DNA from: a virus | Length of the DNA stretch: 37,006 nucleotides | Virus record (IMG/VR): IMGVR_UViG_3300021197_001720 | Coordinates: 1 to 37,006 of that record | Reading direction: 5' to 3' (one strand) | In this document: in pieces, positions 1 through 31,500 of the stretch | Numbering within the stretch: position 1 is the first letter of the stretch | Layout of the letters: each line of letters starts with the position of its first letter | Program-made: the position numbers and the translations under genes | Notes under the pieces: generated by a model | The model's input: only the letters and a program-made list of their open reading frames with translations | Databases searched by the model: none | What the model was told of the DNA's origin: nothing

Positions 1-452
1 CATATTTTTTTCTCAAATGCTTCAATTGTGCCTAAATTGTCAGATCCTGCACGCCAATCGTTTAGCAATGTTTGTATAGTCTCATATGTTCTATACTCAG
101 GAACCCTAGTGTTATAGAAATTGTCATCAGTTAACTTATGATTAATCTCTTTGATTAAAAGAGATTTTTCTTTATTAAGTTTTGTAGCATTGTGATCAGA
201 AGCAGCAGATTGTGCCTTTTCTATGATTCGACTTGCAATAGTATCGGATGATACTGTAGTCTTAACAAGAGAATTGAATAGCCGAAACTCTTTATAGAGC
301 TCAGTGCCTTTCCGGAAATGCTCTTTAAGGATTGTTAAAGCAACGTCGGCCTGTTCCTTATCACCCTCTACAAGACATTCTGATACTTTTCTGCACAGTT
401 GCTCGTATATGATTCCAACATTTCTTTTCTTATTGTGATTCTTACTCGTCAT
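1..452 (-). CDS. Conserved phage protein downstream of portal (partial, runs off left end)
   Basis: Reading frame open from an ATG at 452 to the window edge, giving 150 visible residues that begin MTSKNHNKKRNVGIIYEQLC and have no stop. The start overlaps the last 11 nt of the portal gene, and a GAGGG ribosome-binding site sits 5 nt before the ATG inside the portal coding sequence, so translation is probably coupled. The product looks mainly alpha-helical and charged, with segments such as KEHFRKGTELYKEFRLFNSL and LNKEKSLLIKEINHKL. No enzymatic motif is visible. In T4 the genes just after portal gene 20 are the prohead core genes 67 and 68 and then protease gene 21, so by position this may be a capsid-assembly or core protein. 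That role is inference; I do not recognise the family by a name. Confidence 0.8.
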   Translation of the reverse strand, partial: MTSKNHNKKRNVGIIYEQLCRKVSECLVEGDKEQADVALTILKEHFRKGTELYKEFRLFNSLVKTTVSSDTIASRIIEKAQSAASDHNATKLNKEKSLLIKEINHKLTDDNFYNTRVPEYRTYETIQTLLNDWRAGSDNLGTIEAFEKKI

Positions 453-2439
453 CTTTGCCCTCTTCAATCAAGTCAATTTCATACTCTTGATCTTCACTTA
501 CGTCTTCACTAAGTATGGCGCGCCGAGTGATTCCTATCGTACTCGACATATTCGATAAAGTTCTATTCATTTGTTTTGTCATAATAGTTCTTTGAGTTAT
601 CTTATCATCAATGAACTTGTCCATAAATTCATTTCTAGGCAAAGATGCCTCTTTAAATGGATTTTTAATAAAATCGTCATCAAAAGGTTTGCTGAGAGAG
701 TCTTGTTTTCTACCAGCTTTTCCAACGCCTGTCATTGTCTTAAAGTCAGGCATGTGTGTAGCTGACGGACCTGCGGTGACTTTTCTCTTTTTTTGCATAG
801 GTTCATTAAATATATTCTTAATTCTATTATGTGCCTTGACAGGTGCATCGTCGTCATTAATAGATAATCGTGAGAGAATGTCTTCATCATCATCAGAATC
901 ATCTTCAGTGTCCTTGCTCTTCTTGCCTGGCGTACCTATGAGAAGAGGTCCTTCTGGCTGGTCTGCACTAAACAGATCATCCCCTCCGCCTTCGTCCTCA
1001 CCACCTTCGTCACCACCGCCTTCTTCATCCCCTCCGCCAGTATCAGGACCTGCCTCAACCTTTGCATCTTCGGCTGTGTCCGCAATTCTCTCTTTAATCA
1101 TTCCTGAGATTTGTTCGTCTGAAAGTTCTAATATGCTCTTTCTAATATAAGACCTGCTAACTAGCCCTTCAGGGGCTGATCCTGCAATTTCAAACTTTGT
1201 ACGTATCAACTCTAGTTTTTGCTGCTGTGCTATTGACGATGGATTTGAGAGTTTAATGTCAAAGTCGACTATGTCATCGCCTTCATATCCATGCGCATAT
1301 AAGTGAATCATCGCCAGCTTATTAAGCTCAGCAACAATAGTTTTTTGAATTCTGGCGATATTTCTGCTGAACCTTATATCTTCCTGGGCCAGTGTTGCCT
1401 TAGCTCCGACGTCTTCATCATATCCCAAATATGCCTTTGGAATCTTTAATGCAGCAAACAACTTTTTCTGTACATATTCTACATCTTCAATAGCTGCTGC
1501 GTTTTGACCACCTGCTAAGGTGTCAATTCTAGTACCAGATTCACTTCCTCGAACTGGAAGAAAATAGTCTTCATCGACAGAAAGCGGATTATATCTTAGA
1601 TCAACCTTTCCTGTAGTTTTATCTACGATCTGAGATCGTTTTAGAGATGTTTTTGCTTGCTCCAAGTAGTTTGAAACTTCTTCAGGTGGTACATTACCTA
1701 CATCGATGTAGAACACGCGTCGTTCAGGAGCTCTAATTACACGATACACTAGCATTGCGTCTTCAATTAAGATCATTTGTCGCCAGATTCTTCTAGCTGA
1801 CTCCAAGACTGATGATCCGTACGGTAAAAATGCATCATTTCCTAGCAGCCTAAAATGTGAAATCTGCCAGTTTTCTAGAATCTTATTTCCTTGTGTGATC
1901 CACCTAAATCGTACTGCCATTGGATCATTAGGATCAAAACCTTCTTCTCTTTCAATTTCTGATATTGCGATAGGAAACACGTTCATTATGCCGTATTCCG
2001 GGGAAACATCATTAAAGAGAAAGAAGTCGCCATACTTGACAAGGTTTCTTACCCACATTCCTAAGTTAAACTCAATGTTTAACGTCTCGTAGAAAAGATC
2101 GTCTAGCAAGCCTTGAACTTTTCTGTTTTCTGAGTAGACATGCAGAGCTTGACCTTGTGCATCTGGTGATACACACTCTTCTGCGTAAATGTCTAATGCA
2201 GAAGATATCTCTGGGGTTGACTCCATCTCACTAAAGTCACTATACCTCGACATTCTATCGAAAGCGCCGTAGGATGACAGTGTACTATTATAGACATCAC
2301 TATGGGCTCTCTTAAAAACCTCAAGTGCTGTGCTAGTGCCGCCTGTTTTTGCGTTATAATTCTTAACGCGCCTTTTAATAATCGGACCTGATCTAAAAAG
2401 CTTAGTCAGCCTTACAAATAGATTCTTATTTTCCGCCAT
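442..2439 (-). CDS. Portal protein, T4 gp20-like
   Basis: 665-aa portal (head-tail connector) protein, the dodecameric ring through which DNA is packaged and at which the tail joins. Family features: the N-terminal block with YSDFSEMESTPEISSALDIY, the segment YGDFFLFNDVSPEYGIMNVF, the IWRQMILIEDAMLVYRVIRA and APERRVFYIDVGNVPP stretch, and the conserved central helix region with KIPKAYLGYDEDVGAKATL. All are typical of the T4 gp20 portal family. T4 gp20 is 524 aa; the extra length here is mainly C-terminal, where residues about 461-497 are almost only Gly, Asp and Glu, followed by a charged tail. Start: ATG with GAGG about 8 nt upstream. It lies directly after the large terminase (57-nt gap), in the packaging module. 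Identity is firm; the role of the acidic tail is unknown. Confidence 0.95.
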   Translation of the reverse strand: MAENKNLFVRLTKLFRSGPIIKRRVKNYNAKTGGTSTALEVFKRAHSDVYNSTLSSYGAFDRMSRYSDFSEMESTPEISSALDIYAEECVSPDAQGQALHVYSENRKVQGLLDDLFYETLNIEFNLGMWVRNLVKYGDFFLFNDVSPEYGIMNVFPIAISEIEREEGFDPNDPMAVRFRWITQGNKILENWQISHFRLLGNDAFLPYGSSVLESARRIWRQMILIEDAMLVYRVIRAPERRVFYIDVGNVPPEEVSNYLEQAKTSLKRSQIVDKTTGKVDLRYNPLSVDEDYFLPVRGSESGTRIDTLAGGQNAAAIEDVEYVQKKLFAALKIPKAYLGYDEDVGAKATLAQEDIRFSRNIARIQKTIVAELNKLAMIHLYAHGYEGDDIVDFDIKLSNPSSIAQQQKLELIRTKFEIAGSAPEGLVSRSYIRKSILELSDEQISGMIKERIADTAEDAKVEAGPDTGGGDEEGGGDEGGEDEGGGDDLFSADQPEGPLLIGTPGKKSKDTEDDSDDDEDILSRLSINDDDAPVKAHNRIKNIFNEPMQKKRKVTAGPSATHMPDFKTMTGVGKAGRKQDSLSKPFDDDFIKNPFKEASLPRNEFMDKFIDDKITQRTIMTKQMNRTLSNMSSTIGITRRAILSEDVSEDQEYEIDLIEEGKDDE

Positions 2440-2496: not shown

Positions 2497-4089
2497 CTAT
2501 AGAAGCCAGCTAAAGTCTCCGTAGGGCTGATTTGAACCGCTTTCAGGCATTTGTGTAATTACAATTGGCTTAAACGGATTCATGCTCTTATTTTCCCATG
2601 GGGACGTAACTTTATCTGCACTGGTTCTATTGACAGCAAAAGCACCTAACATAGCCTTATTAATGTCGACTGAATGTTTGCTATTAACAGGTGATGTATC
2701 AAATAGCCAAACACCAATTGCTAGCGACATTACAAGGTCATCATTTTTGCCTTTTTGTGCCTGTGCCTTAGCACCCTTCCAGATAAATGTTTTCATTTCG
2801 TCATATAAACGACTAGAGTATACCTTGATTTCCTTGTTTCGGATAACTTGTTCAAGTTTAGTTAGTATTTGACTTCTAGACTGGCCTGTTGTTGTGAACC
2901 CTATCTTATGAATAGGAATTTCTCCAATACCATACAATGCATTAAACTTGTCCTTTTGATCTTTAAAGTACATATTCTTATAGCCCATCTCTTTGAGCTT
3001 CATAATGACTGCATACCCGTATGTATTGTTTTCAGGGCAAATTAATGCTTCACAGTATCTCTTTCCAGCCTCTGCCAATAAAGCTGCAAACTGATCCGGT
3101 GGTACTTTTCCTCTATACTCACAAACAACCTCAGAAGTGTTTGTATCAATAACATGAAACGTACTGTAGTCTTGTGCATCGCCTCGTGCGACGTCAGCTG
3201 ATACTATGTATTTGTGTTCACTTAGAGAGTATTTCCACACCCATACCCCCATGTCCGGCCCCCACCGTTCCATAGGGGGCTTTACACAAGATCCGATCCA
3301 GTCTATTTCATCGTTGCTTAGGTAAGTGTCACCAGATGCTGCAAAATCACACATAAGCTCTTGTGCAATCTGCTTATTGGTAAAGTTGCGACTTTCCTTG
3401 GCAAACCATTCAGCGTCATGCTCAGGATGTACGTCCCACGGAAGCTTTATAGGGTTAAACTCATTTTCACTTGATTCTGCTTTGAGCCAGATATCATGAT
3501 ACTGACCTCCTACGCCATTTGGCGTCGAAAGAACAATAGCACGCCCACCGGTTGAAATGGTTGGATATAGAGATGTCCACAGTTCATCAAAGTTTCTAAT
3601 AAATGCTGCTTCGTCCACAATCAATAATGAAAGTGCTTCAGAACGACCAGCATCATCGGATGTCGGTACAGCCTTTATTTGAGACCCATTACTAAACTCA
3701 ACAGTCTGTTTATTGTTTGCTGTAATCTCTGGAAGAATTAGCCAGTTTGGCATACTCTTCAAAGATATCTTTACCTTTTTAATAAAGTTTTGAGCAACAG
3801 CTAGTTTAGTTGCGATAACTAGAACATTCTTGTCTTTGTAGAATATTGCTAGCCATACCGCATAAGCAGCTGACAACGTAGAGATGCCTAGCTGTCTAGA
3901 CTTGAGTATAACATTGAACCTATGGTCAACAAACTGCTTTAAACAGTCATCCTGGAATGGATACGTGTCAAAGCCTATCAAACCTCGGGTCGGGTGCTGA
4001 ATTCTCAGGTACTTATTGATAAAGTACACCGGGTCCTTTCCGCACTTAATGATTTCTTTGATCTGCTTTTGTTTGTTGACTATAGCCAT
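2497..4089 (-). CDS. Terminase large subunit, T4 gp17-like
   Basis: 530-aa DNA-packaging motor, with an N-terminal ATPase and a C-terminal RNase H-fold nuclease. Visible motifs: Walker A SRQLGIST (residues 64-71, the deviant form typical of gp17), Walker B LLIVDEAAF (E160 is the likely catalytic glutamate), and the coupling motif LSTPNG (187-192). The nuclease acidic residues are D299 in SADVARGDAQD, E353 in CPENN and D451 in KNDDLVMSLA. All key residues are present, so it should be active. It is shorter than T4 gp17 (610 aa). It starts at an ATG 3 nt after the stop of the 122-aa gene and is followed by the portal gene, the usual phage packaging order. It stops with TAG, which is unusual in this window. 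Confidence 0.97.
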   Translation of the reverse strand: MAIVNKQKQIKEIIKCGKDPVYFINKYLRIQHPTRGLIGFDTYPFQDDCLKQFVDHRFNVILKSRQLGISTLSAAYAVWLAIFYKDKNVLVIATKLAVAQNFIKKVKISLKSMPNWLILPEITANNKQTVEFSNGSQIKAVPTSDDAGRSEALSLLIVDEAAFIRNFDELWTSLYPTISTGGRAIVLSTPNGVGGQYHDIWLKAESSENEFNPIKLPWDVHPEHDAEWFAKESRNFTNKQIAQELMCDFAASGDTYLSNDEIDWIGSCVKPPMERWGPDMGVWVWKYSLSEHKYIVSADVARGDAQDYSTFHVIDTNTSEVVCEYRGKVPPDQFAALLAEAGKRYCEALICPENNTYGYAVIMKLKEMGYKNMYFKDQKDKFNALYGIGEIPIHKIGFTTTGQSRSQILTKLEQVIRNKEIKVYSSRLYDEMKTFIWKGAKAQAQKGKNDDLVMSLAIGVWLFDTSPVNSKHSVDINKAMLGAFAVNRTSADKVTSPWENKSMNPFKPIVITQMPESGSNQPYGDFSWLL

Positions 4090-4465: not shown

Positions 4466-4711
4466 TTACACTCCTTTAAGAGGACTACTTCCTAAGTATG
4501 CTGCATCTAGATTGATTCTATTCAGCAATTCATCGACCTCATCCTTAGACGGTCGCCATCCGGTCTTCCATTTTTCTTGATTCGGATACATAAAAAAGTC
4601 GCGGCAAACGCTGCAGCAGCCATATTGATGCCAAACTACAACGTCATGCTTGTCCGCGAATAGTATATCACATAATGGGCATGATAAAGGCGCAACTTTT
4701 TTATTACTCAT
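4466..4711 (-). CDS. Small putative zinc-binding protein
   Basis: 81-aa protein with two cysteine knuckles, CPLC (C11, C14) and CCSVC (C32, C33, C36), separated by a segment with H22 and H28. This is consistent with one structural zinc site in a ribbon-like fold. The C-terminal half is polar and probably helical (SKDEVDELLNRINLDAAYL). Its ATG overlaps the end of the Mre11-Rad50 gene by 8 nt (ATGAGTAA), suggesting coupled translation, and the next gene starts 4 nt after its stop. I do not recognise the family. A role as accessory factor for the recombination complex or for packaging is possible from position only. Confidence 0.82.
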   Translation of the reverse strand: MSNKKVAPLSCPLCDILFADKHDVVVWHQYGCCSVCRDFFMYPNQEKWKTGWRPSKDEVDELLNRINLDAAYLGSSPLKGV

Positions 4712-7700
4712 GGATTACTCTTGCATTTTTCTCAAACTGAGTTATCTCTAAGACATTATCCACTGCATCTTTGACAGCATCTACATGAGATATTACCATA
4801 ATGTTCTTAAACCACTTCTTGAGAGAGTTAAGAAGGCGACTGCACGCCTCTATATTAGTATCATCTAGTGCGCCAAAGCCTTCGTCAATAACAAGCAAGT
4901 CTGTCTTAGGTAGCGCGCTGACGTTTATCAGGGCGACTCTTATTGCTAGCGATGACATCATCTTTTCCATTCCTGATCCGCACTCAACAATTCTTCTGGA
5001 GTCACCGTAATTAATGTAGACCTGCATATCATTTGAACCAGGCTTAGTTTCTAGCTCTACAGTAAATCCAACTACTCCTTGTAGAATCTTAGATATCTCT
5101 TCATTGATCAAAGGTAACTGAGACGCTATAATTTGCAATGGGATGCCTTTCTTTGAAAAGGCGTTTTCGACAAGATTAAATATTCTCCATTTCTTTGTCA
5201 ATGATGAATATTGGTCTTTTTCATCTTCTAGACGCTGAATTTCTGTTTCAGACTTGGTAATCTCGCTAGTAAGACTAATTCTTGCAGCATCTTCCACATT
5301 AATTCTATTGTTAAGCTCTGAAGCTTGTGCCTTGACCATTGAAACTTTTTTTGCTTCATCCGATGTTGAAACTCTGGCACGCATTGATGTTAATTCAAGT
5401 TCAGAAGTATCAACTTGTTCACTTAACATCTTTTTCTTATTATTGGTCTGGTTTAGTTCAAGCCTAACTTTGCCTAAATCGATGTGCATTTCATTTTCTT
5501 TTTGTAATACACGATCATATTTTTCAATTTTTTCACTTAGGTTCTCTTTTAGCATTACTCTTAGTGATTTTTGTGCTGCACGTACCTTTTCTTGGGCTTC
5601 TTTGGCTTTTGCTGCCTGCTTTTCAATTTGTCGCTTATGTTTAGTAGCATTTTTAACATGGGGGCAAGAAGGCAAGTGGTTTGCAGTGCAACTACACGGC
5701 GCAAGTTTCTCATCTAAGTTTTTCTTACTAGACAAAAGTTGTTTGTCTAGCTCTCTTTGATGTTCTAAATCCTTAAGTGTTCTTTCTAGGTCACCTAGCG
5801 CGACTTTTCTTTCGCGAAGCTCATCAATAGGAAACTGTTCTTTTATTCCTTGAACAGCAGTTAGTTTTGATTCTAAGTCTCGCACCCGCTGTAGATGCAA
5901 TTTGCTCTTTTCCTCAATTGACTCTAAAGACTTCTTAGAATTACTCAGTACTTGAACGTGATTATCAATATCAGCTTCTGTAACTAATCCTGAGCTTTCT
6001 GAAGTTGCCAAAGCAATATTAAGCTCCTGAAGCATCAACCTTAGTTTTGCAAGATTATCTTCAGCAGCCTTTCGACTCAATTCATTCTTTTTCTTTTCAG
6101 ACTTTTCTGCAGAAATTAAAACGTCCCACTCTCTATCAGGCGCATTTTTTAGAAGTGCTTTTACTTCAGACGCGTCTTCTTTAATGTGATTAGACATCTC
6201 ATCATAGATTTCTAGATCTAAAAACTTAGTTAAGATTGCTTTTCTCTGGGTTGCCTTGTTCTTAATGAAATTATTCATCTCTCCTTGGCTGGCAAGTGAT
6301 GTCATTAAGAAGTCTTCAGGCGTACCTACAATTTGACGTAGTACCTTTTCAGTCTCACGACGTTGCTCGCCATTCAAATCCTTAACTTCTACGCCCATGT
6401 CATCTACTTGACTTAAATTTAAGTGTGTTACAGCACTTTCAACACCTGATCTATTAGTCTTCCTAGTAGCTTGACGCTCAATTTTATAGTCTTTACCGTT
6501 TGCGCTGAGCATTATCTTAGCCACACAGTGACCTTTCCTCATGTTAATCACATGAAGGTTACTCATGGCACCCCTATCAGTAGTATTATAGAGGCCAAAC
6601 ATAAGCGTACCGGGTATAGATGACTTGCCGGCCCTGTTTTTTCCAAAGATGCCAGTGATTCCATTGATCTTTTCAAAGTCTACAATGTTGTTTTTACCAT
6701 ATGAAAAGGTATTATCGAACTCCAGACGCTTGACAGACCACTTAATGTTCCTAGGGTTGTCTGACTTGGCTGCTAATACTACGTACTTAGACACTATAGA
6801 TTCTATTTTTTCCCATTCTTCATTGCTTATTTCGACGTCGCCATAGTACTCTTTAAGAAATGTCATGTGGGTCGAAGGATCACGAAGGTCTTTTTTGAAA
6901 AACTTACCTGAAGTGGTATTAATTTCTTGCGTTGAAATAGCGTTTTCGTATTTAAAGACTATTTCAGAAGCAATTTTTTCTTCTTTTAGTGCATTATGAA
7001 GCTGCTTAATCTCTGCCTGGGTTATGGGTGCCTTTGCACGAACCCTAAACCTAGCTTTGTCTGGATATGTTTCCGCCTCTGCTACAGTTTCATTGATATC
7101 ACCGTTCCACTCTATGGTAACAAATGGCCTACTAAATGGGACCTCATAAAAAGTCGACTTATAGTTGTCCTTGTCGTCGATTTCCCAAAAGAGGAACCCT
7201 TTTCCAGGGTCTTCTCCATAGTTTTGCTGAATTGTTGACCCTGGGTATGCAACTCTTTTGTCTTTGTCTAGATACTGCAGCTTGTGAATGTCACCTAAGA
7301 ATGTAAACTCAAACTTATTGAAGAAATCTAAGTCAACATCGCCGTCGATATTCCAATCAATATCTGTAGTGGAACCATTGACACCACCATGAAATGTTGC
7401 AATGTTAACATCACCCTCAATAGGTTCTACTTTATCCCAGTTTTCTTCATCAAAGCATGAAAACACAGACCAATTAAAGCCGTCAATTCCTGTAGGATAT
7501 GTTCCTGACTTTTTATAGAGGAAAATGTTAGAATTGTCCAGGGCATTTAGAATAGGTGATATTGCATCTTGACGATGCTTATTAAGAATCAACCCATCAT
7601 GATTACCTAGAATGACGTGTGTAGGGGCAATGTCTGCTAAGCCATTAAACCACCAAATTAGGCAGTCAATTAGCTCAGGAGATATTCCTTGGGTCTTGCT

Positions 7701-7856
7701 ATGTACAATATCACCCCCGATAAAGATTGCATTGGGCTTAAGGCCCTTGGCAATATCAAAAAGGGCCTGAAACGACTCTTTGTACTCTTCATGGCGGGTT
7801 AACCCACGCCAATGTACATCACTAATATGTAAGCAACGAAATTTTGAATTAGTCAT
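4704..7856 (-). CDS. Single-chain Mre11-Rad50 (SbcD-SbcC / gp47-gp46) fusion
   Basis: 1050-aa DNA-end-processing enzyme joining nuclease and ATPase in one polypeptide. Residues 1-360 form an Mre11/SbcD calcineurin-like phosphoesterase, with D13 and H15 (ISDVH), D49 (IGGDI), N85 and H86 (LGNHDG), H156 (FHGG) and H191 (GDIH). Residues about 375-1050 are Rad50/SbcC: Walker A GKNRAGKSS (405-413), Q-loop Q524, a long coiled coil (about 550-890) with a Cys/His-rich apex at 721-733, signature ECGSGMEK (958-965), Walker B LLVIDEGFG (987-995) and switch His H1024. In T4 and most bacteria these are two genes; the fused order matches the 47 then 46 (sbcD then sbcC) order. No internal stop or start signal suggests two products. 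It should process recombination intermediates and ends during replication. It starts 7 nt after the primase stop, and a zinc mini-protein gene overlaps its end. Confidence 0.95.
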   Translation of the reverse strand: MTNSKFRCLHISDVHWRGLTRHEEYKESFQALFDIAKGLKPNAIFIGGDIVHSKTQGISPELIDCLIWWFNGLADIAPTHVILGNHDGLILNKHRQDAISPILNALDNSNIFLYKKSGTYPTGIDGFNWSVFSCFDEENWDKVEPIEGDVNIATFHGGVNGSTTDIDWNIDGDVDLDFFNKFEFTFLGDIHKLQYLDKDKRVAYPGSTIQQNYGEDPGKGFLFWEIDDKDNYKSTFYEVPFSRPFVTIEWNGDINETVAEAETYPDKARFRVRAKAPITQAEIKQLHNALKEEKIASEIVFKYENAISTQEINTTSGKFFKKDLRDPSTHMTFLKEYYGDVEISNEEWEKIESIVSKYVVLAAKSDNPRNIKWSVKRLEFDNTFSYGKNNIVDFEKINGITGIFGKNRAGKSSIPGTLMFGLYNTTDRGAMSNLHVINMRKGHCVAKIMLSANGKDYKIERQATRKTNRSGVESAVTHLNLSQVDDMGVEVKDLNGEQRRETEKVLRQIVGTPEDFLMTSLASQGEMNNFIKNKATQRKAILTKFLDLEIYDEMSNHIKEDASEVKALLKNAPDREWDVLISAEKSEKKKNELSRKAAEDNLAKLRLMLQELNIALATSESSGLVTEADIDNHVQVLSNSKKSLESIEEKSKLHLQRVRDLESKLTAVQGIKEQFPIDELRERKVALGDLERTLKDLEHQRELDKQLLSSKKNLDEKLAPCSCTANHLPSCPHVKNATKHKRQIEKQAAKAKEAQEKVRAAQKSLRVMLKENLSEKIEKYDRVLQKENEMHIDLGKVRLELNQTNNKKKMLSEQVDTSELELTSMRARVSTSDEAKKVSMVKAQASELNNRINVEDAARISLTSEITKSETEIQRLEDEKDQYSSLTKKWRIFNLVENAFSKKGIPLQIIASQLPLINEEISKILQGVVGFTVELETKPGSNDMQVYINYGDSRRIVECGSGMEKMMSSLAIRVALINVSALPKTDLLVIDEGFGALDDTNIEACSRLLNSLKKWFKNIMVISHVDAVKDAVDNVLEITQFEKNARVIHE

Positions 7857-7863
7857 AAATTTA

Positions 7864-8838
7864 TTAGATCAGCGAACCACTTCTGATCTCTCCTATCTTT
7901 GAAAAAAGTTGGTGGCTATAGTTCCAGTTAATAGCATTTTTTGCTATTTCTTCAAATTCACCTAACTTCATATCACCTACATCTTGTCCGGACGGTAGAC
8001 ACACATACCTTACCCTTACACCGTATGAGGTTAGCACTTTTGCTATGTTGTGCATTTTGTTTATCGCATCATTGTCTAAAGACAACAGAACCGGTGTCTG
8101 TCTTTTAACAACTTGTTTAAATAATAAAGAGTCTTCGGGCAAATGAGACCCTAAAAGACATCCAACGTTTGATCGTACTTTCATTAGATCAAATGGACCT
8201 TCGACCAATATCAGTTCTTGGGTCCAGTCAATGTTTAATTCATTAAAGATTACATCCTTTTTAGACACCTTTGCATTTAGGTACTTAAATTTGTTTTCTG
8301 GGTCTATTGATCGAGCTGAATAGTAGTTTAAGTCACCTTCATCGTCAAAAGACGGAATTATTACACGTCTTCGAAACTGCGATACTGTGCACGTGCCCAG
8401 GCGATACTTCCATATCTCACGATCTGTCAAGCCTCTAGACTTGCAGTATCTAATAGCAGCACGTATATCAGGATCTTTGGCTAAAAGATTGTCCCCTAGA
8501 AGCCTAAAGCCTTTTGGGATCTTTAGTTTTTCTATGAAGGATTCATCTATTTTACCTTCAAGGCTAAATTTCGAATTCTTTGACCACTTTTTAAATACAG
8601 GATGTTCTGCGGCAGATGCAGATACCATTCTTACAACTCTAATAACATTTCTGCCTTTTAAGCCGCAAACCCAGCAGTGATACATGCCCTTTTCTAGATT
8701 TATTACCAGTTTTTTCTTATTTGAGCCAGGTTTTGAACATTTTGGGCACTTTACAGATACATCATCGCCATCGCGACTCAGATCCAGGGCACCAAATGCC
8801 GCTTTTAAGGCGGACACTTTTTGAGTTCTATCAGACAT
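7864..8838 (-). CDS. DNA primase, DnaG/gp61-type (zinc ribbon plus TOPRIM)
   Basis: 324-aa primase that would make RNA primers for lagging-strand synthesis. A four-cysteine zinc ribbon is at residues 31-58 (CPKC at 31-34, CWVC at 55-58). The TOPRIM domain shows ILVEGPFDLMKV (E213, the catalytic glutamate) and LLSLDNDAINK (D255, D257). The intervening YCKSRGLTDREIWKYRLG is typical of DnaG-type catalytic cores. The length is close to T4 gp61 (342 aa), and there is no helicase domain fused. It lies between the RuvC-like gene (19-nt gap) and the Mre11-Rad50 fusion. No ribosome-binding site stands at normal distance before the ATG; instead a promoter-like sequence places the expected transcript start on the ATG itself. 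The stop is a tandem TAA TAA. Confidence 0.93.
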   Translation of the reverse strand: MSDRTQKVSALKAAFGALDLSRDGDDVSVKCPKCSKPGSNKKKLVINLEKGMYHCWVCGLKGRNVIRVVRMVSASAAEHPVFKKWSKNSKFSLEGKIDESFIEKLKIPKGFRLLGDNLLAKDPDIRAAIRYCKSRGLTDREIWKYRLGTCTVSQFRRRVIIPSFDDEGDLNYYSARSIDPENKFKYLNAKVSKKDVIFNELNIDWTQELILVEGPFDLMKVRSNVGCLLGSHLPEDSLLFKQVVKRQTPVLLSLDNDAINKMHNIAKVLTSYGVRVRYVCLPSGQDVGDMKLGEFEEIAKNAINWNYSHQLFSKIGEIRSGSLI

Positions 8839-8845
8839 CTATAAA

Positions 8846-8874
8846 ATTATAGACGCCTTATGCTATGTGTTCAA
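8846..8874 (-). promoter_or_regulatory. Candidate sigma70-type promoter for primase, leaderless geometry
   Basis: On the minus strand TTGAAC (8874-8869) is followed after exactly 17 nt by a perfect TATAAT (8851-8846), then 7 nt (TTTATAG), then the primase ATG at 8838. The expected +1 falls on the A of the ATG, so the transcript would be leaderless. It overlaps the last codons of the RuvC-like gene. The -35 matches the consensus in 4 of 6 positions. Chance occurrence in AT-rich DNA is possible; the support is the spacing together with the absence of a ribosome-binding site before the primase ATG. Confidence 0.4.
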
Positions 8875-9424
8875 GTTTTGCAGCGCGTGCTATTACATAA
8901 GCATCGGCCATGTCATAGCATCCAGGTTCAAGGACGACCTGGTTCTTCCGGGGGCCACTTTTTAGCACCTTTTTAGGCCAGTCGTAATTAGCTAGTTCTT
9001 GAGATGTCCATTCAAATACTTGCTCTTTAGTTTCTGCTCCACCTTTTCTCTTTGATAGAATTTTAAGGCCAACAGATTTCCTTGCTGCATTAACATTAAA
9101 GAATTGTGGCTCTATTTCAAAAGTATCTTGACACAAGTAGGAAACAATACCATTAAATTTTGCCAAAGAAGAAAGTGTTTGTGCTGAAGAAAAGCCTGAT
9201 CTAAATGACTGCAAGTTTTCTTCTATTGCAATTTCTGTAATATTGTACTCAGCCTGAATCGTCTTTAGTTCTTCTAGAACACGCTTTGCCTTGCTAAAGT
9301 GATTTTTAAGCTTTGCCAATGGTATAAAGCATAGTTTTAGCAAAGATGTCTCAGAAGTTAATTCTGGATCTAATATGCAGTAACCTGTGCAGCTGGTTGA
9401 TATATCTAATGCTAGTATCGCCAC
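8858..9424 (-). CDS. RuvC-like Holliday-junction resolvase
   Basis: 188-aa RNase H-fold nuclease of the RuvC type. Motifs: N-terminal strand with the first catalytic aspartate, ILALDISTSCTGYCILD (D7); the second acidic position AIEENLQSFRSGFSS (E68/E69); the segment FFNVNAARKSVGLK; and a C-terminal helix GCYDMADAYVIA with D171 and D174, equivalent to the closing HxxDA motif of RuvC. Expected role: resolving branched recombination and replication DNA before packaging, the job done by the unrelated endonuclease VII (gp49) in T4. The start codon is GTG, read from a TAGTG overlap with the stop of the 1175-aa gene, so translation is probably coupled. The ribosome-binding site is weak (AAGATGGA). 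Confidence 0.88.
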   Translation of the reverse strand: MAILALDISTSCTGYCILDPELTSETSLLKLCFIPLAKLKNHFSKAKRVLEELKTIQAEYNITEIAIEENLQSFRSGFSSAQTLSSLAKFNGIVSYLCQDTFEIEPQFFNVNAARKSVGLKILSKRKGGAETKEQVFEWTSQELANYDWPKKVLKSGPRKNQVVLEPGCYDMADAYVIARAAKLEHIA

Positions 9425-24814: not shown

Positions 24815-26863
24815 TTACTGAATTAATACTGTGATCTTGTCGTCAGTCCCTAGGTTAAAGTTAACAACGACATTTTGTGCATCTCCAGCGAGGGTGTAAT
24901 CTTCATTTGACCCAGAAGCCATTAGAACACCATTGATAAATATGTCTATGTTAGTGTCGGAGTAAGAACCTCCTGCAAAATTAATTCCCGGGACTAAAAG
25001 ATTATTGCCAGAAGGATGAGATCCTGTAATGGTATAAGATACTTTCTGCCTGGTTGTACTAATAACAACTGAATTTGAAGGACTAGTATCAATGGCTATA
25101 CCAGACCCTGCTGTTATTACTTTTTCGTTAGTAAGATCTCCGGATGCACCAAAAGTTACATACGGTGAGTTTTTAGGTGCACGGTCTGAGGCACCTGAGC
25201 TTTCTGGTGTCATTACAATGGCATCTACAATATCATCAGGCTCCAATGCAAAACTAAACTTAATTTCACTGTTACCACTAATAGTATAGTCTGCTTCGCT
25301 GCCGGTAACTTGATCAAGTGTTCCGGAGTGTACTAGCATTCCATTAACATGTACATCAATTGCACTTGGCGAAAATAAAGCTGTACTGAAGTCTATTCCA
25401 GATGTAGGGAAAGCTGTGAGTGCTGCTATTGTAGAGTTAATTGTATAGTCTTTTTTGTTTCTAGTTAGACTAAGTGCATTAGACTTGATGGTGAGAGCGC
25501 CTGCTTCACTAGTACTAAGTGTTATTCCTGCGCCTGCTGTAAGAACTCTTTCGTTACTTGCGTGACTAGTCTGGCCGTACGTTATAAATGGCGCTGTTCT
25601 AAGATTAGTATCTACAGCACCGGCCGGAGCCGGTGCTGATATCGTCAATTGACCATTTGAGGCAGATGCTATGGTTACATTTGACCCTGCGACCAAATAG
25701 CTTAAACCAGACTGTATTTTTTGAAGTGATCCGCTGAGCCCTTGATTAAACTTTACTGGGCCTGTAAATGTTGACCCAGAAATTGTTGCAATGATATCAT
25801 TGTCTATGTTTAGAGTAAATGCGTTTCCGGCACCGGAGTCTGTTGCTACTAGGCCTGAACCTGCTGTAAATACTCGTTCGTTGTTAATTGACCCGGTTGC
25901 GCTTAACACCAGAAATTGTGAATTTCTATCAAAGCCGTCAACAGAAAGGCCGGGGGCTGCAATTGTAACAGATCCGTCTGTCCCTGTAGTAATCTGTACA
26001 TTTGTTCCGGCCTTCATATAAGAGGTGCCGTTTGTCAAATGTGTTAGAGACCCGGATAATCCGGCATTAAACTTTTGTACACCGGAAAATATGCTGCCTG
26101 CTAGCGTTGGGACTACATTTTCATCAACTCTAAGCGTGGCCGATGATCCAGCGCCACCGTCTATTAGTGTAAGGCCTGATCCTGCTACTAATGCTCGCTC
26201 TCCGCTCAAAGATCCTGTGTTTGACAAGACAATATAGGTTGCACCTTGATCTCCGGCGCCTGAATTTCCTAGCATCGACCCTACATAATCGCCAATGTAT
26301 ATAAAAGCGTCTACATATGTTGGGTTTTGCGCGTGAAAGCCTGTCCCAGGAGGATCTTGTTGAAAAATAGTACCATTAAAGTAGTCTATATTCCAGTCTC
26401 TTGCATCCAAAAGAGGTATTCTAGTTTGGGTGCTAGATGCTGTATGATATAATTTGGCCTCGTAACTATTACCAAAAGACGGAGGTACTAATTGAAGTCC
26501 GCCCTGTGCAGTATTCACCTCTCGGCCGTTAGTATAGAACCCTGTTCCTTTTTTGGTGTTAGAAGAGTGTGTAACGTAGTCATCAGGCAAAGTAAGTTTA
26601 AAACCATGTTGGCCATCACTAGTGTCTGAGCCCTGTATAAAAGAAGCAGATAACCTTACGTACTCAACAACACCGCTAGTTATTGAATAAAGTGAACTTG
26701 ATGATGGACTACCAGGTATTGATTGACCAAAGACAGACGCAGCTGCAATTGTAACACCCGAAGGCAGTGCCTCGTTTGACAAGCCCTTGTTATTAGACGT
26801 ATGCGCCTTGCCAGACAGCTTTTTAAGCGACAGCAAACGCTCTGTTTTTGCATCAAATGCCAT
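24815..26863 (-). CDS. Tail-fibre-like protein, short paralogue (682 aa)
   Basis: 682-aa fibre-type protein. Residues 1-200 are a virion-anchor domain closely matching the start of the 2082-aa protein (shared LKKL-x-GKAHTSNNKGL and YFNG-x-x-FQQDPPGTG). Residues about 205-600 are a shaft of repeats of two kinds: (ATG)xLxNERVLTAGSG-type (four copies, near 216, 322, 432 and 574) and GSLxxLxxGxSYxxAGxNV-type (two copies, near 271 and 378). The C-terminus has two copies of a small beta domain, IDVHVNGMLVHSG...DYTISG (502-550) and IDIFINGVLMASG...DYTLAG (639-681). It lacks the large C-terminal module of its two neighbours. Likely role: host recognition or baseplate decoration. Start: ATG with GAGGGA 6 nt upstream. 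Confidence 0.9.
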   Translation of the reverse strand: MAFDAKTERLLSLKKLSGKAHTSNNKGLSNEALPSGVTIAAASVFGQSIPGSPSSSSLYSITSGVVEYVRLSASFIQGSDTSDGQHGFKLTLPDDYVTHSSNTKKGTGFYTNGREVNTAQGGLQLVPPSFGNSYEAKLYHTASSTQTRIPLLDARDWNIDYFNGTIFQQDPPGTGFHAQNPTYVDAFIYIGDYVGSMLGNSGAGDQGATYIVLSNTGSLSGERALVAGSGLTLIDGGAGSSATLRVDENVVPTLAGSIFSGVQKFNAGLSGSLTHLTNGTSYMKAGTNVQITTGTDGSVTIAAPGLSVDGFDRNSQFLVLSATGSINNERVFTAGSGLVATDSGAGNAFTLNIDNDIIATISGSTFTGPVKFNQGLSGSLQKIQSGLSYLVAGSNVTIASASNGQLTISAPAPAGAVDTNLRTAPFITYGQTSHASNERVLTAGAGITLSTSEAGALTIKSNALSLTRNKKDYTINSTIAALTAFPTSGIDFSTALFSPSAIDVHVNGMLVHSGTLDQVTGSEADYTISGNSEIKFSFALEPDDIVDAIVMTPESSGASDRAPKNSPYVTFGASGDLTNEKVITAGSGIAIDTSPSNSVVISTTRQKVSYTITGSHPSGNNLLVPGINFAGGSYSDTNIDIFINGVLMASGSNEDYTLAGDAQNVVVNFNLGTDDKITVLIQ
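25615..25638 (-). other. Perfect 10-bp GC-rich hairpin with UNCG tetraloop inside a fibre gene
   Basis: In the mRNA sense the arms CAGCACCGGC and GCCGGTGCTG are perfectly complementary and enclose the tetraloop TCCG (UCCG in RNA), closed by C-G. That is the very stable cUNCGg type. It encodes the Ala/Pro-rich linker SAPAPAGAV (residues 409-417) of the 682-aa protein. No T-tract follows, so it is not an ordinary intrinsic terminator. Possible roles are RNA stabilisation, processing or a translation pause between shaft segments; all are inference. Confidence 0.6.
26264..26863 (-). repeat. Anchor-domain copy 2 (first 200 residues of the 682-aa protein)
   Basis: This segment encodes the same domain as 32521-33129. 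In residues 11-36 of the two products 22 of 26 positions are identical. The DNA is also alike: both copies read GGATCTTGTTGAAAAA in the plus strand near 26352 and 32602. This indicates gene duplication within the fibre cluster. Confidence 0.85.
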
Positions 26864-26880: not shown

Positions 26881-28590
26881 TTATGCAGTTCGCCAGGCTA
26901 GTGTCATGTCTGTAATGTTACCCGTCCATGTTGAGTGTGCCTTAACCCTGATAAGTATGTACTCGTTGTTACTAACAAAATGAGTTCCGAACGTTCCCCA
27001 GTTGGTTGCGTTTAGAGAACTATCAAAAGCACCGTTTCCAGAATCAAAACAACCATCATCATCAGAATATTCACCTGTATTAAAAGTAGCTGCAATATCC
27101 ATCCACCCTGTAGACTGCGATGCACTTGTTGAAGGTATTTTAAAATGAACCATCAAGTTGTTATTTGCGCCTAATGTCCCCGTGGAAGCAATAATTGTTC
27201 CTGTACCGTTAATAGTAATCTGGAACATTTGTCTTGCAGAGCCCTCTGTATTTCTAAACCACCGAATATACTCACGTGTGGATGCTGATACTGCACTATA
27301 ATTCGGATTGCCGCTAGGACCAACTAGAGTACCAAAATTTGTATTCGTATTGTGGCCGGCTGTAAATGCGACCAGCTTTCCATTGAAAACCATGAGCCCT
27401 TGATTGTGTCCTGTGTCAGATCCGTGAACAAGAGAAACTGTAGAGTCCCAATTATTACTAGAGGCTGTTACATGTGATTGTTGTGTGTATGTGCCTGACT
27501 TACGCCTCTTAGACTCGCCGTTAAATTGCTCAACCAAGTTAGTAGAATTATCTGTCGATGTAAATATTAGTAAGTTTCCGCTCTGTGTAGATGAAGTATC
27601 CGTATTTCCTTTAAGCGGGTGATTAACTCTACCTACCAAAGTAACTGTTTGCAAACTTCCGGGAATTGATGTGGAAGAATCAACAGAAAAAGATCCAGTA
27701 ACTACTAAGTTTTGATCATGTGCTGCACTGACGCCTGTATCCAATACAGGTAGCGTTGTTTGTACAGCACTGGTAGTTGCATTAGTTACCCCTGTGCCGC
27801 CTGCTGCAATTTGTGTGACTGTACAGTTAGTTGTTGTTGGAAATCTAATCGCGTTGCTAGCATCACTATAGACGTACTTGTATAAGTTAGCTACTGTAAA
27901 GTGAAACTTGCCAACCGGTGAAACAAAGTAAGTTACACCTGATAGTGAAAACGAAGACCCAGACTCTGAGAAGTCTCCCACAGCGACATTTGACATCGTT
28001 ACTGTTGATCCGTCATCATCGTTTACCCATTCTACGTAAGAAGACTCATGGTCTGAACCCCCTATTGTATGAATAACACGGGCGTAATTAAAGCCTTTTC
28101 GCTGCGCGGCTACTGCTACCTTCCAAGATCCTGTTCTATACCACTTTGTAAAGTCTGGTAAGCTACTTGTGTCTAATCCATTAGTAGCTGCAGATAATCC
28201 TGTAAAACCTGAGTTGCTAGTTAAGCTGTCTCCCGATGCAAATGAAGCCAGGTTAGTTGTGTGTATAACTGATCCGTTAACTTCTAGCTTAAGAGTGCCC
28301 GTATTGGCGACACCACTACCAAATGCATTAGCTGGATAAGCATTTGCGCTAGCTGATGTGGATTCATTTATTGTGCCTACAACATTTGTCGCGCCGTTGA
28401 GAACACCATGACGTGGGGCGCTTAGAGCATACAAATCGTTAGCGTTTCTAGCTGTTCCTCCGGCTGTGGTTTCAATAGTTGAGTATCCTGATTTTGTTAG
28501 AGTGTCACCGAACGATAGATTTGCAGCAACGCCGTCAGTATCTTGATCGATATTGTTGACGTTAGGCGAGGCTGCAACGCTTCCGACAGC
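26881..28590 (-). repeat. C-terminal fibre module, copy R2
   Basis: About 570 codons at the 3' end of the 2082-aa gene. Landmarks in order: NLSFGD, NAYPANAFG, WYRTGSWKVAVAAQRKGFNY, SSYVEWVNDDD, VSGVTYF-type strand, KYVYSD, NHPLKGN, SLVHGSDTGHNQGL, GPSGNPNYS, REYIRWFRN and SNNEYILIRV...STWTG. The same landmarks recur in 28591-30408 and 33143-34936. This copy is the more divergent of the two in its own gene. Confidence 0.85.
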
Positions 28591-31500
28591 ACCAAATGTA
28601 ACAACTAGGGAGTCAATATATCCTGTCCAGGTATGTGCTGCTTCAATTTTTGCAACAATAAACTCATTATTACCTATTTCAATTGTACCGAAAGAGATGT
28701 GGTTTGTCATTGCATCGCTTGTATCAACTGATCCTATTGCACCGCCATCGGCGTCTGCCGTGCTACCTAATGCAAATGCATTTTTAGCATCCAAAAAGCC
28801 TGTAGTGTTTCCTGATCCGTCGTTTGGCATCTTAAAAGAAAGCTTAAACTTGTCATTTGCCCCAATAGAATCAGATGCACCAACTAGTGTTACATCACCT
28901 GCAATTGTGTAGGTAAAGTCTCTAACGGCAGCACCTGATGTGTTCTGAAACTTTCTATAATATGTACGCGTTCCTGATGATGCAGAATAGTTTGGGTTTC
29001 CAGCTGGGCCATTTGCCAATGAACCTCCATCACCGCTATTTCTAAAGTCACCTGAGTTTAGAGTATTACGCGGTGCGTATAGTCTTTCTCTATAGACCTG
29101 AAGTCCTGTATTGTGTGCAGTATCTGATCCGTGTACAAGACTTACTGATGAGTCCCAAGCGTTGCCACTAGCTGCGTCTGATTGATTTGCATACGTGCCT
29201 ACCTGTAACCTATAGTCTTCATCTTGAAATGTCTCTGACAGGGCCGTAGCTGTATCAGAGACATTATAGAGTAATATGCCTGAGGCTGAAGCTTGCCCGG
29301 CGTTCGACAAATTGGATTTAAGAGGGTGCGCGACGCTAATTCCTGCTGTTAATGATCCGCCTAAAATGTAGTTTGCTGTCACGGTATCAGTTTCATCTAC
29401 AGCAATCTGTTTCGTGTGATCTTCAGATCCGCCAATGTCTTCAGGGGTAATAGCAGAGATTGCATATGATACTCCTGAAGTCAGACCTGAATTTGATGTT
29501 GTAAAAGTATGATTTGTTGTCTTGTCATAAACATATTTGTATGCATTTGAAACTGTAACCTGATATCTTCCTGTACCTCCTGTAAAGTATGTGACACCAG
29601 ATATTTGCTTAGACCCAGTTCCTGAATATGTTAACGTGTTTGCGCTGGCTGCCAGTGCGTTAGAGTCATTATCGTTTACCCACTCAACGTAGTTGGTGTT
29701 GATAACTGAGCCCTTGCTGTGCTTGACTCTTGCATAGTTCCAGCCGTTTCTTTGATCAGCTGCTGCCACTTTCCAGCGACCTGTTCGATGCTTGAAACTA
29801 GCAAACGATGCTCCACCGTCAAAGGTTCCTGCTGTGGCTGCTGACAGGTTTGTGAAACCCGAACCGTTTCCATTGACGTGTGTTCCTGTTCCTGATCCTG
29901 GTGATCCTGTTCCTGTACTTCCTGCTGTAAGGCTTAAGGTATATAAATCTGCACCGTTAACTTCTAGTATAAGTGAGCCAACGTCCGCGTCACCAAATGA
30001 ATTCACAGGATAGTTTGTTCTGCTTGATGGTGAAGTAATATCTGCAACGACATCCTCGTTTAAGTCTCCAGTCTGATCGACTGTCCCGTTAAAAAGACCT
30101 CTTCGTAAATTGTTGCTATTTTCTGCTGTCGTGTATAAACCGTTAACGTCGAGAGCAGATCCAAGACCGGCGGAGGCTGCGACTGAAATATATGGAGGTG
30201 AAGCGGAAGATTGATTGTTTGCTGAGCCGAATGATAAGTCACCTGCAACTCCTGAGGTTACATTGCTGTCAATATCATCCAAGTCAGGTGCTGGTGCTGG
30301 AACTAGTAGCTTAAGAACCTCATTAAATCTATCAATAGGTGTTCCAATAGCTGTTGATGTAGTAAAGTCAGTAAAGAGTCCGTCAGTATAAGCACCATCT
30401 TCTGCTGCACCAATTGTTCCGCCAGGTAGTTGACTTGGATTAATGTGTTTGACTACAGCAGCATCATTATCATATACTAATAGTAAGTCATTACTAGCAT
30501 CGACTGTAATTCCTGTTCCGTCAGTAGCAGCCTTCACAAAAGAATCTGCACCTGCATAGTCTAAAGATAGTTCTGTACTGTCTATAGCCAAACCGCCACT
30601 TGCCTTAAGATCTAGACTAAACGTAGTTCCAGATAAGTCCAAACCGTCTCCAGCTGCGAACGTTGTATCAGCATCAATTAGTGTCTTTAATTGTGTCAGC
30701 GTTATCTTTTTTGTAAGATTACTATCACTAGCATCAGCAATAGCAATTGAGTCACTTAAGTTGCCAGCGTTTCCATCAGCACTTAAGCCATGCACATGTA
30801 TACGAAGATTGTCAGATCCGTCGTCTTCTAATCCAGCACCTGCAAAGTCTGTCGGCTCAACAGATAGTTTTGCGCCGTCTATTTTTAGACCTGCACTTGA
30901 ATTAAGATCTAGACCCAGCACGCCTGATGCGGCTGCAATTCCGTCTCCGGCGGCAGCTGTCATTACGTCTGCAATCGATTCTTTCTTTGATGAGTCATCT
31001 GTGGCATCTATAATAGGAATTGAGTCATTAGCTACGTCGACAACAGCTGCTGACAATTCATTTAAGTCGACAGCTAGAGCCGCTCCGCCGCCACCAGATA
31101 AACCATTTCCGGCGGCGGATGTTGCAATTCTTAAATTGTCTGATCCATCATCTTCTAGTCCTGAGCCTGCAAAGTTTGCCGGCTCAACCGCTAACTCAGT
31201 TGAATCAATCTTAAGACCGCCTGACGCTTTTACATCTAGGCTAAATACTTTTCCTGTAAGATCTAGACCGTCACCTGCAGAAAATACTCCAGGCCCAGAA
31301 AACTGCGACCATGTGATAGCAGTCGTACCTACAGTAACAGCGCCATCGTTAGTACATACAAAACCTGTGTCACCATTTACTGTTCCTTGCTCAACAAAAA
31401 CGTGGGCACCGCCTGTTATATCATCTTGATCTGCATCAGAAGCTCTTGTCAATGTCAGCGTGGTACCGGATAAAGCACCTACTATATAGATACCGTTCCA

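Follow-up and report, generated by a model that had tools for sequence, protein, structure and literature searches.

The window that we analysed is a 37-kb fragment of a marine-type bacterial virus (IMG/VR record IMGVR_UViG_3300021197_001720, 37,006 nt), in which the main open reading frames of the ORF list all run on the minus strand. One of these frames encodes an Mre11-like nuclease and a Rad50-like ATPase in a single chain, and the genes around it are the following:

442..2439, minus strand: T4-type portal protein gp20 (Pfam Portal_T4, 4e-77)
2497..4089, minus strand: T4-type terminase large subunit (Pfam Terminase_6N, 3.6e-16)
4466..4711, minus strand: Cys-rich small protein of 81 aa (ORF), whose start overlaps the fusion stop by 8 nt (ATGAGTAA)
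4704..7856, minus strand: Mre11/Rad50 fusion gene, 1050 aa (ORF and translation, Pfam domains, single frame in complete relatives)
7864..8838, minus strand: DnaG-type primase (phrog_47, 9.9e-44), directly upstream of the fusion with a gap of 7 bp
8858..9424, minus strand: RuvC-like Holliday junction resolvase (phrog_159, 7e-13)

The window also encodes long structural-type genes. Two large proteins of this type (24815-26863 and 26881-33129) have a common N-terminal stretch, SLKKL.GKAHTSNNKGL.NEAL, and look like paralogous virion proteins.

The fusion frame reads from 7856 to 4704 with an ATG start and no internal stop, while the plus strand in the same frame contains many stops across 4704-7856. 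The claim of a preliminary description of this DNA, that Mre11 and Rad50 lie in one uninterrupted frame of 1050 aa, is thus borne out by the ORF, by Pfam and by fold matches, the strand being the minus one. Pfam recognizes Metallophos at residues 7-181 (1.9e-10), AAA_23 at 377-596 (8.7e-8) and SbcC_Walker_B at 956-1010 (1.1e-4, slightly short of the cut-off). Judged by its sequence, the protein begins with an Mre11/SbcD-like nuclease and continues with a Rad50/SbcC-like ATPase, both of them complete. A single-chain AlphaFold model built with 82 sequences has a mean pLDDT of 86 and the canonical domain order, although its pTM of only 0.51 leaves the mutual placement of the domains uncertain. 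From N- to C-terminus, all on the minus strand, the parts are:

7137..7856, minus strand: Mre11/SbcD-like phosphodiesterase domain, residues 1-240 (Pfam Metallophos 7-181, SbcD fold match, ligand alignment)
6948..7124, minus strand: capping domain, residues 245-303 (AlphaFold secondary structure and pLDDT; inside the SbcD match 6-304)
6768..6878, minus strand: helix-loop-helix, helices 327-337 and 345-363 (AlphaFold DSSP)
6744..6767, minus strand: inter-domain linker, residues 364-371, 8 residues (coil between helix 345-363 and strand 372-381, AlphaFold)
6213..6743, minus strand: N-terminal lobe of the Rad50 ATPase head, residues 372-548, with Walker A 405-413 and Q-loop Q524 (Pfam AAA_23, SbcC fold match)
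5706..6212, minus strand: coiled-coil arm 1, residues 549-717 (AlphaFold helices)
5664..5705, minus strand: apex with remodelled zinc hook, residues 718-731 (C721-x-C723-x7-C731, then H733)
5157..5663, minus strand: coiled-coil arm 2, residues 732-900 (AlphaFold helices)
4707..5156, minus strand: C-terminal lobe of the Rad50 ATPase head, residues 901-1050, with signature 961-964, Walker B 986-992, D-loop 998 and H1024 (Pfam, 82-protein alignment, fold match)

The VIA fold search places both halves with their expected families. The top SbcC/Rad50 head is that of E. coli SbcC (7yzo_D, Z 31.6 over 373-1050), and the SbcD matches have an overall Z of about 25 over residues 3-304, including S. aureus SbcD (7dog, Z 25.8 over model residues 6-304) and E. 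coli SbcD (Z 25.4). With profile and fold matches to both halves, chance motif matches are ruled out. In a comparison with predicted structures of viral proteins, repair proteins of Tupanvirus, Harvfovirus and Yasminevirus as well as Tenacibaculum phage pT24 stand among the best long matches, the Tupanvirus protein being 22% identical over 1316 columns of the fold alignment.

The fusion is neither an accident of assembly nor peculiar to this window. A first scan of viral contigs returned 16 relatives with best-segment identities of 42 to 96%, and a profile-guided scan found at least 588 loci encoding relatives among its first 600 candidates, of which the best 80 were kept and joined by a further 10 loci from MAG contigs. 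Nuclease, N-lobe and C-lobe occur together in 100 ORFs (the window copy and some duplicate loci included), which reduce to 85 distinct metagenomic sequences plus Microcystis phage Mel-JY01 and LR756501. Every relative with a complete, uninterrupted gene, that is, all 85 distinct metagenomic loci and the two phage records, encodes it in one frame; since the retrieval favours full-length matches, this shows that the lineage is fused and not that separate relatives are absent. The ORFs that lack one part run off contig ends, with two exceptions, an interrupted gene (L019) and a nuclease-only gene of 277 aa (L109). Two relatives from other samples, one 78% identical (L001) and one 94% identical over residues 325-1050 (L002), carry the same gene in the same gene order. 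Independent contigs thus keep the same frame and synteny, which rules out an assembly join or a frameshift artefact, and the many fused relatives in metagenomic and phage records rule out a fusion unique to the window.

Could the single frame nonetheless yield two proteins, with translation or cleavage giving an Mre11 and a Rad50 that would work as an ordinary two-subunit complex? The partly ordered linker 364-371 and the loop 305-310, where pLDDT falls below 50, could be cut. However, the frame crosses the junction in every complete, uninterrupted relative. In the comparison with L001, synonymous sites are near saturation and both enzyme parts show little non-synonymous change along their whole length; across residues 360-376 of the linker region pS is 0.80 and pN only 0.09, so that the junction itself is translated and constrained. 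Nor is there a conserved internal start near the junction: a start codon with a Shine-Dalgarno-like site was found in 4 of 82 relatives, never as ATG, and M331 and V355 of the window come without a clear ribosome-binding site. Neither an internal start nor a split near residue 365, flagged in the preliminary description as events that could give two proteins, is therefore supported, and we consider separate products very improbable.

The surroundings of the fusion are as stable as its frame. Over 107 loci, the order RuvC-like resolvase, primase, fusion, 81-aa protein, 122-aa protein, terminase, portal is strongly conserved, with the primase upstream of the fusion in 90, the RuvC-like gene as a conserved neighbour in 78 and the terminase downstream in 96. 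A homologue of the 81-aa protein, which bears CPLC and CCSVC motifs, lies downstream of the fusion in 85 of the 107 loci, and this small protein is a candidate partner of the fusion. The window being a fragment, we turned for the rest of the gene content to ten long related contigs (123-320 kb), in each of which the single phrog_77 match is the fusion. It is also the only AAA_23 match in nine of them (G010 has none), and Metallophos too gives one match per contig, save for three additional small ones in G004. Mel-JY01 has two additional weak and short phrog_77 matches. A RecA gene is found in all 11 records, the ten long contigs and Mel-JY01. As a separate case, the 735-kb phage LR756501.1 (L018) encodes a 1202-aa fusion and also a strong phrog_77 match at 670999-672753 (3.7e-74); in at least one huge phage, then, a separate Rad50 seems to accompany the fused one.

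The preliminary description had listed the catalytic motifs, and the residues it gave are all present and nearly invariant in the 82 aligned proteins: D13, H15, D49, N85/H86, H156 and H191 in the nuclease, and Walker A 405-413, Q524 of the Q-loop, SGME 961-964 of the signature, D991/E992 of Walker B and H1024 in the ATPase. The list was nevertheless incomplete, as it missed both the altered hook and one metal ligand, Asp189. The metal ligands of the fusion are D13, H15, D49, N85, H86, H156, D189 and H191, and Asp189 aligns with H185 of T4 gp47 and H222 of E. coli SbcD, the first His of GHxH. A second replacement, H52 instead of the last Asp of GDxxD, is found in 79 of the 79 aligned proteins that have letters there.

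The change of His to Asp could lower or alter nuclease activity. In the extreme the nuclease half would be impaired and the protein would serve mainly as a DNA tether or an ATP-driven clamp, a reading that draws on the presence of Asp189 in 82 of 82 relatives where T4 and E. coli have His. Yet aspartate is itself a good metal ligand, every other ligand is conserved, and a dead site would hardly be kept so strictly. Neither substitution is exclusive to fusions either: BSP38 has GDxxH, and the T5-like D12 has the same GDxH. Finally, Mimivirus R555 bears both replacements, GDxxD to GDxxH and the counterpart of P. furiosus His206 to Asp (PMC3175470). We regard an impaired nuclease as very unlikely.

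The presentation of the fusion as something new, implicit in the preliminary description, does not survive a look at the literature. Mre11/Rad50 fusion proteins (MRFP) were described in 2011 by Yoshida, Claverie and Ogata (PMC3175470), who listed 13 proteins, including Mimivirus R555 and one from a Bacillus phage, with others from plasmids and eukaryotes. They also reported abundant R555-like genes in aquatic viral metagenomes, with phages inferred as the likely source, and primase genes on some R555-like metagenomic scaffolds (PMC3175470), a neighbourhood shared by 90 of our 107 loci. Many more fusions are now found in metagenomes and cultured phages. The window protein has the MRFP layout, with an N-terminal Metallophos/SbcD part and a C-terminal Rad50/SbcC part in one polypeptide, and in the model its cap (245-303), helix-loop-helix (327-363) and linker (364-371) match those by which MRFPs are recognized. 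The linker of 8 residues in the model is short, slightly under the ~9-12 quoted for MRFP (PMC3175470). Compared through its published description, R555 shares with the window fusion the domain order in one chain, the retained cap and helix-loop-helix region and the two substitutions at H52 and D189, but it is a protein of 1351 aa from a giant virus, whereas the present one has 1050 aa, belongs to a T4-type phage and comes with a CXCX7C/CX6C hook.

Single-CDS versions also exist in Microcystis phage Mel-JY01 (WWT39521.1), Tenacibaculum phage pT24, Sphingomonas phage PAU (gp288) and Chryseobacterium phage MA9V-1, all of 1066-1326 aa and aligning over both the nuclease and the ATPase parts. Their annotations read only AAA domain protein, DNA repair, gp288 or metallo-phosphoesterase. 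The Mel-JY01 protein is 33% identical to the window fusion over the matched part and has a CXXC hook (CKHC), while the LR756501 protein led to those of pT24, PAU and MA9V-1, at 23-24% identity, in a tblastn search that gave 13 records, 11 of them at a coverage of at least 80%. The fusion is real and standard across a large group of aquatic viruses, and as a type it was already described in 2011.

Two-gene systems are found in T4, a cyanophage, an Ackermannvirus, a T5-like phage, a Bacillus phage and E. coli; the preliminary description had likewise stated that the subunits are separate in T4 and E. coli. T4 gp47/gp46 resembles the fusion in coming from a T4-type phage, with the same two activities, the nuclease gene first and a role in end resection, but its genes are separated by two small ones, its ligand is His185, its hook is CPTC and its ATPase subunit is shorter (560 aa). 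With its hook at residues 288-291 of 560, gp46 must have a shorter coil than the fusion, whose arms are of ~170 residues each. E. coli SbcCD has the same fold in both halves and the other catalytic motifs, and differs in its separate subunits, its CPLC hook, its His ligand and its SbcC of 1048 aa. From canonical SbcCD the fusion departs in that the subunits are not separate and the hook is not CXXC. The PHROG profiles of the two subunits have 967 and 989 positions, of which T4 gp46 and gp47 each cover a part only; this suggests, short of proof, that fused members already sit inside those families.

In a concatenated tree all sampled fusions group in a single clade (UFBoot 86), distinct from the two-gene pairs of phages and E. 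coli, although with few outgroups, a long branch for L018, and giant viruses, pT24 and PAU absent. This topology fits one fusion event for the sampled lineage, and we do not claim a single origin of fusions.

A further difference lies at the apex of the coiled coil. The CXXC zinc hook has been described as highly conserved (PMC9569753), and we find it in all six two-subunit controls (T4, cyanophage ACG-2014a, Maynard, BSP38, the T5-like phage and E. coli). The window apex has instead CXCX7C (C721-x-C723-x7-C731), and the family consensus is VPCGDxFPTCKFIK, a CX6C form present in 71 of 82 fusion proteins; CXCX6-7C marks a subgroup that includes the window (CXCX6C in five, CXCX7C in the window), L063 is irregular and four have CXXC. 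The model is weak at this point (pLDDT 53 at 721-730). We found no published CX6C Rad50 hook in a literature search that had most subscription journals outside its reach, which is weak evidence of novelty, and the hook change appears to be the only part of our finding that lacks a prior description. End tethering by a hook without CXXC may differ. It is conceivable, and we say so tentatively, that the altered apex closes the arms or tethers DNA in a way that differs geometrically from the Rad50s examined to date, perhaps with a metal held within one chain. Two relatives, L082 and L083, have a CXXC hook like that of Mel-JY01, yet L082 sits within the CX6C group in a tree of nuclease plus head, which suggests exchange of the coiled-coil segment between lineages.

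Domains, fold, conservation and context together indicate that the protein is very probably an MRFP of a T4-type tailed phage that serves as the phage's own version of the SbcCD/gp46-gp47 complex, joined in a single chain, its activity being what we infer from homology; we found no biochemical work on any MRFP in the literature. In T4, gp46/gp47 resect ends to give single strands for the recombinase (PMC3016280), and the fusion fits this scheme as the sole Rad50-like gene of the ten long relatives, which also carry RecA. Two chains would pair through their ATPase heads and a nuclease dimer, forming the equivalent of M2R2. The ATP-bound heads would restrain the nuclease until DNA-end sensing and hydrolysis release it, and the enzyme would then resect or clip double-strand ends, leaving 3' single strands that the phage RecA and recombination-dependent replication could use.

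The helix-loop-helix would be the Rad50-docking element of Mre11, by analogy with T. maritima Mre11 as described in PMC3175470, and in each chain it would dock in cis, at the coiled-coil root of that same chain. Docking in this way is feasible with little room to spare: a linker of 8 residues spans ~28 Å at most (3.5 Å per residue), close to the ~28 Å gap in T. maritima (PMC3175470). The same narrow reach speaks for docking in trans, a domain swap in which the helix-loop-helix binds the coiled coil of the other chain and interlocks the dimer. Cis is however the simplest arrangement, and we judge the swap unlikely. What would the covalent bond bring? The preliminary description had proposed that fusion fixes stoichiometry and constrains the movement of the nuclease, which is overstated, as the canonical complex is already 1:1 (M2R2). 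Given in addition that in the canonical complex the helix-loop-helix already docks on Rad50, and that the linker has only ~8 residues, the fusion probably alters assembly and inheritance more than mechanics. Joining would mainly secure co-expression, co-inheritance and assembly, leaving the 1:1 ratio unchanged.

By itself, then, the fusion leaves our knowledge of how Mre11-Rad50 works unchanged. It does tie the R555-like metagenomic reads of 2011 to a definite and abundant group of T4-type aquatic phages, and it offers a naturally single-chain Mre11-Rad50, moderate in size, that lends itself to structural work since stoichiometry and assembly are set by the chain. The hook variant provides a way to test how much alteration a zinc hook tolerates before the enzyme ceases to work.

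Several relatives deserve mention in their own right. A contig of a Bacteroidales MAG (L109, 5986-6819) encodes a complete nuclease-only relative of 277 aa, 34% identical to residues 9-251, with no ATPase attached and with GHIH, not GDIH, as metal motif. In the 484-kb phage LR756508.1 (L019, 3944-8169), the fusion gene is broken within the nuclease, shortly after GDIH, by an ORF of 305 aa that has Cys motifs as well as a TnsA-like endonuclease domain (PF08722, 5.8e-6); the interrupted gene has no Rfam match to an intron, and the insertion is possibly a homing element. On MAG contig JAQUPX010000020.1 (L107), the ORF start reads ...VYCLSVLNENLLIRYNGKISISGN|C... directly before the nuclease match, which looks like the C-terminus of an intein placed immediately behind the metal motif GNHD in a fused gene. 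MAG contigs labelled Halobacteriovorax, Methylococcaceae, archaeon and others (L100, L101, L102, L103, L105, L106) carry the phage-type fusion adjoining a primase, L100 and L101 with phage terminase and portal as well, and they are probably phage contigs binned with host genomes.
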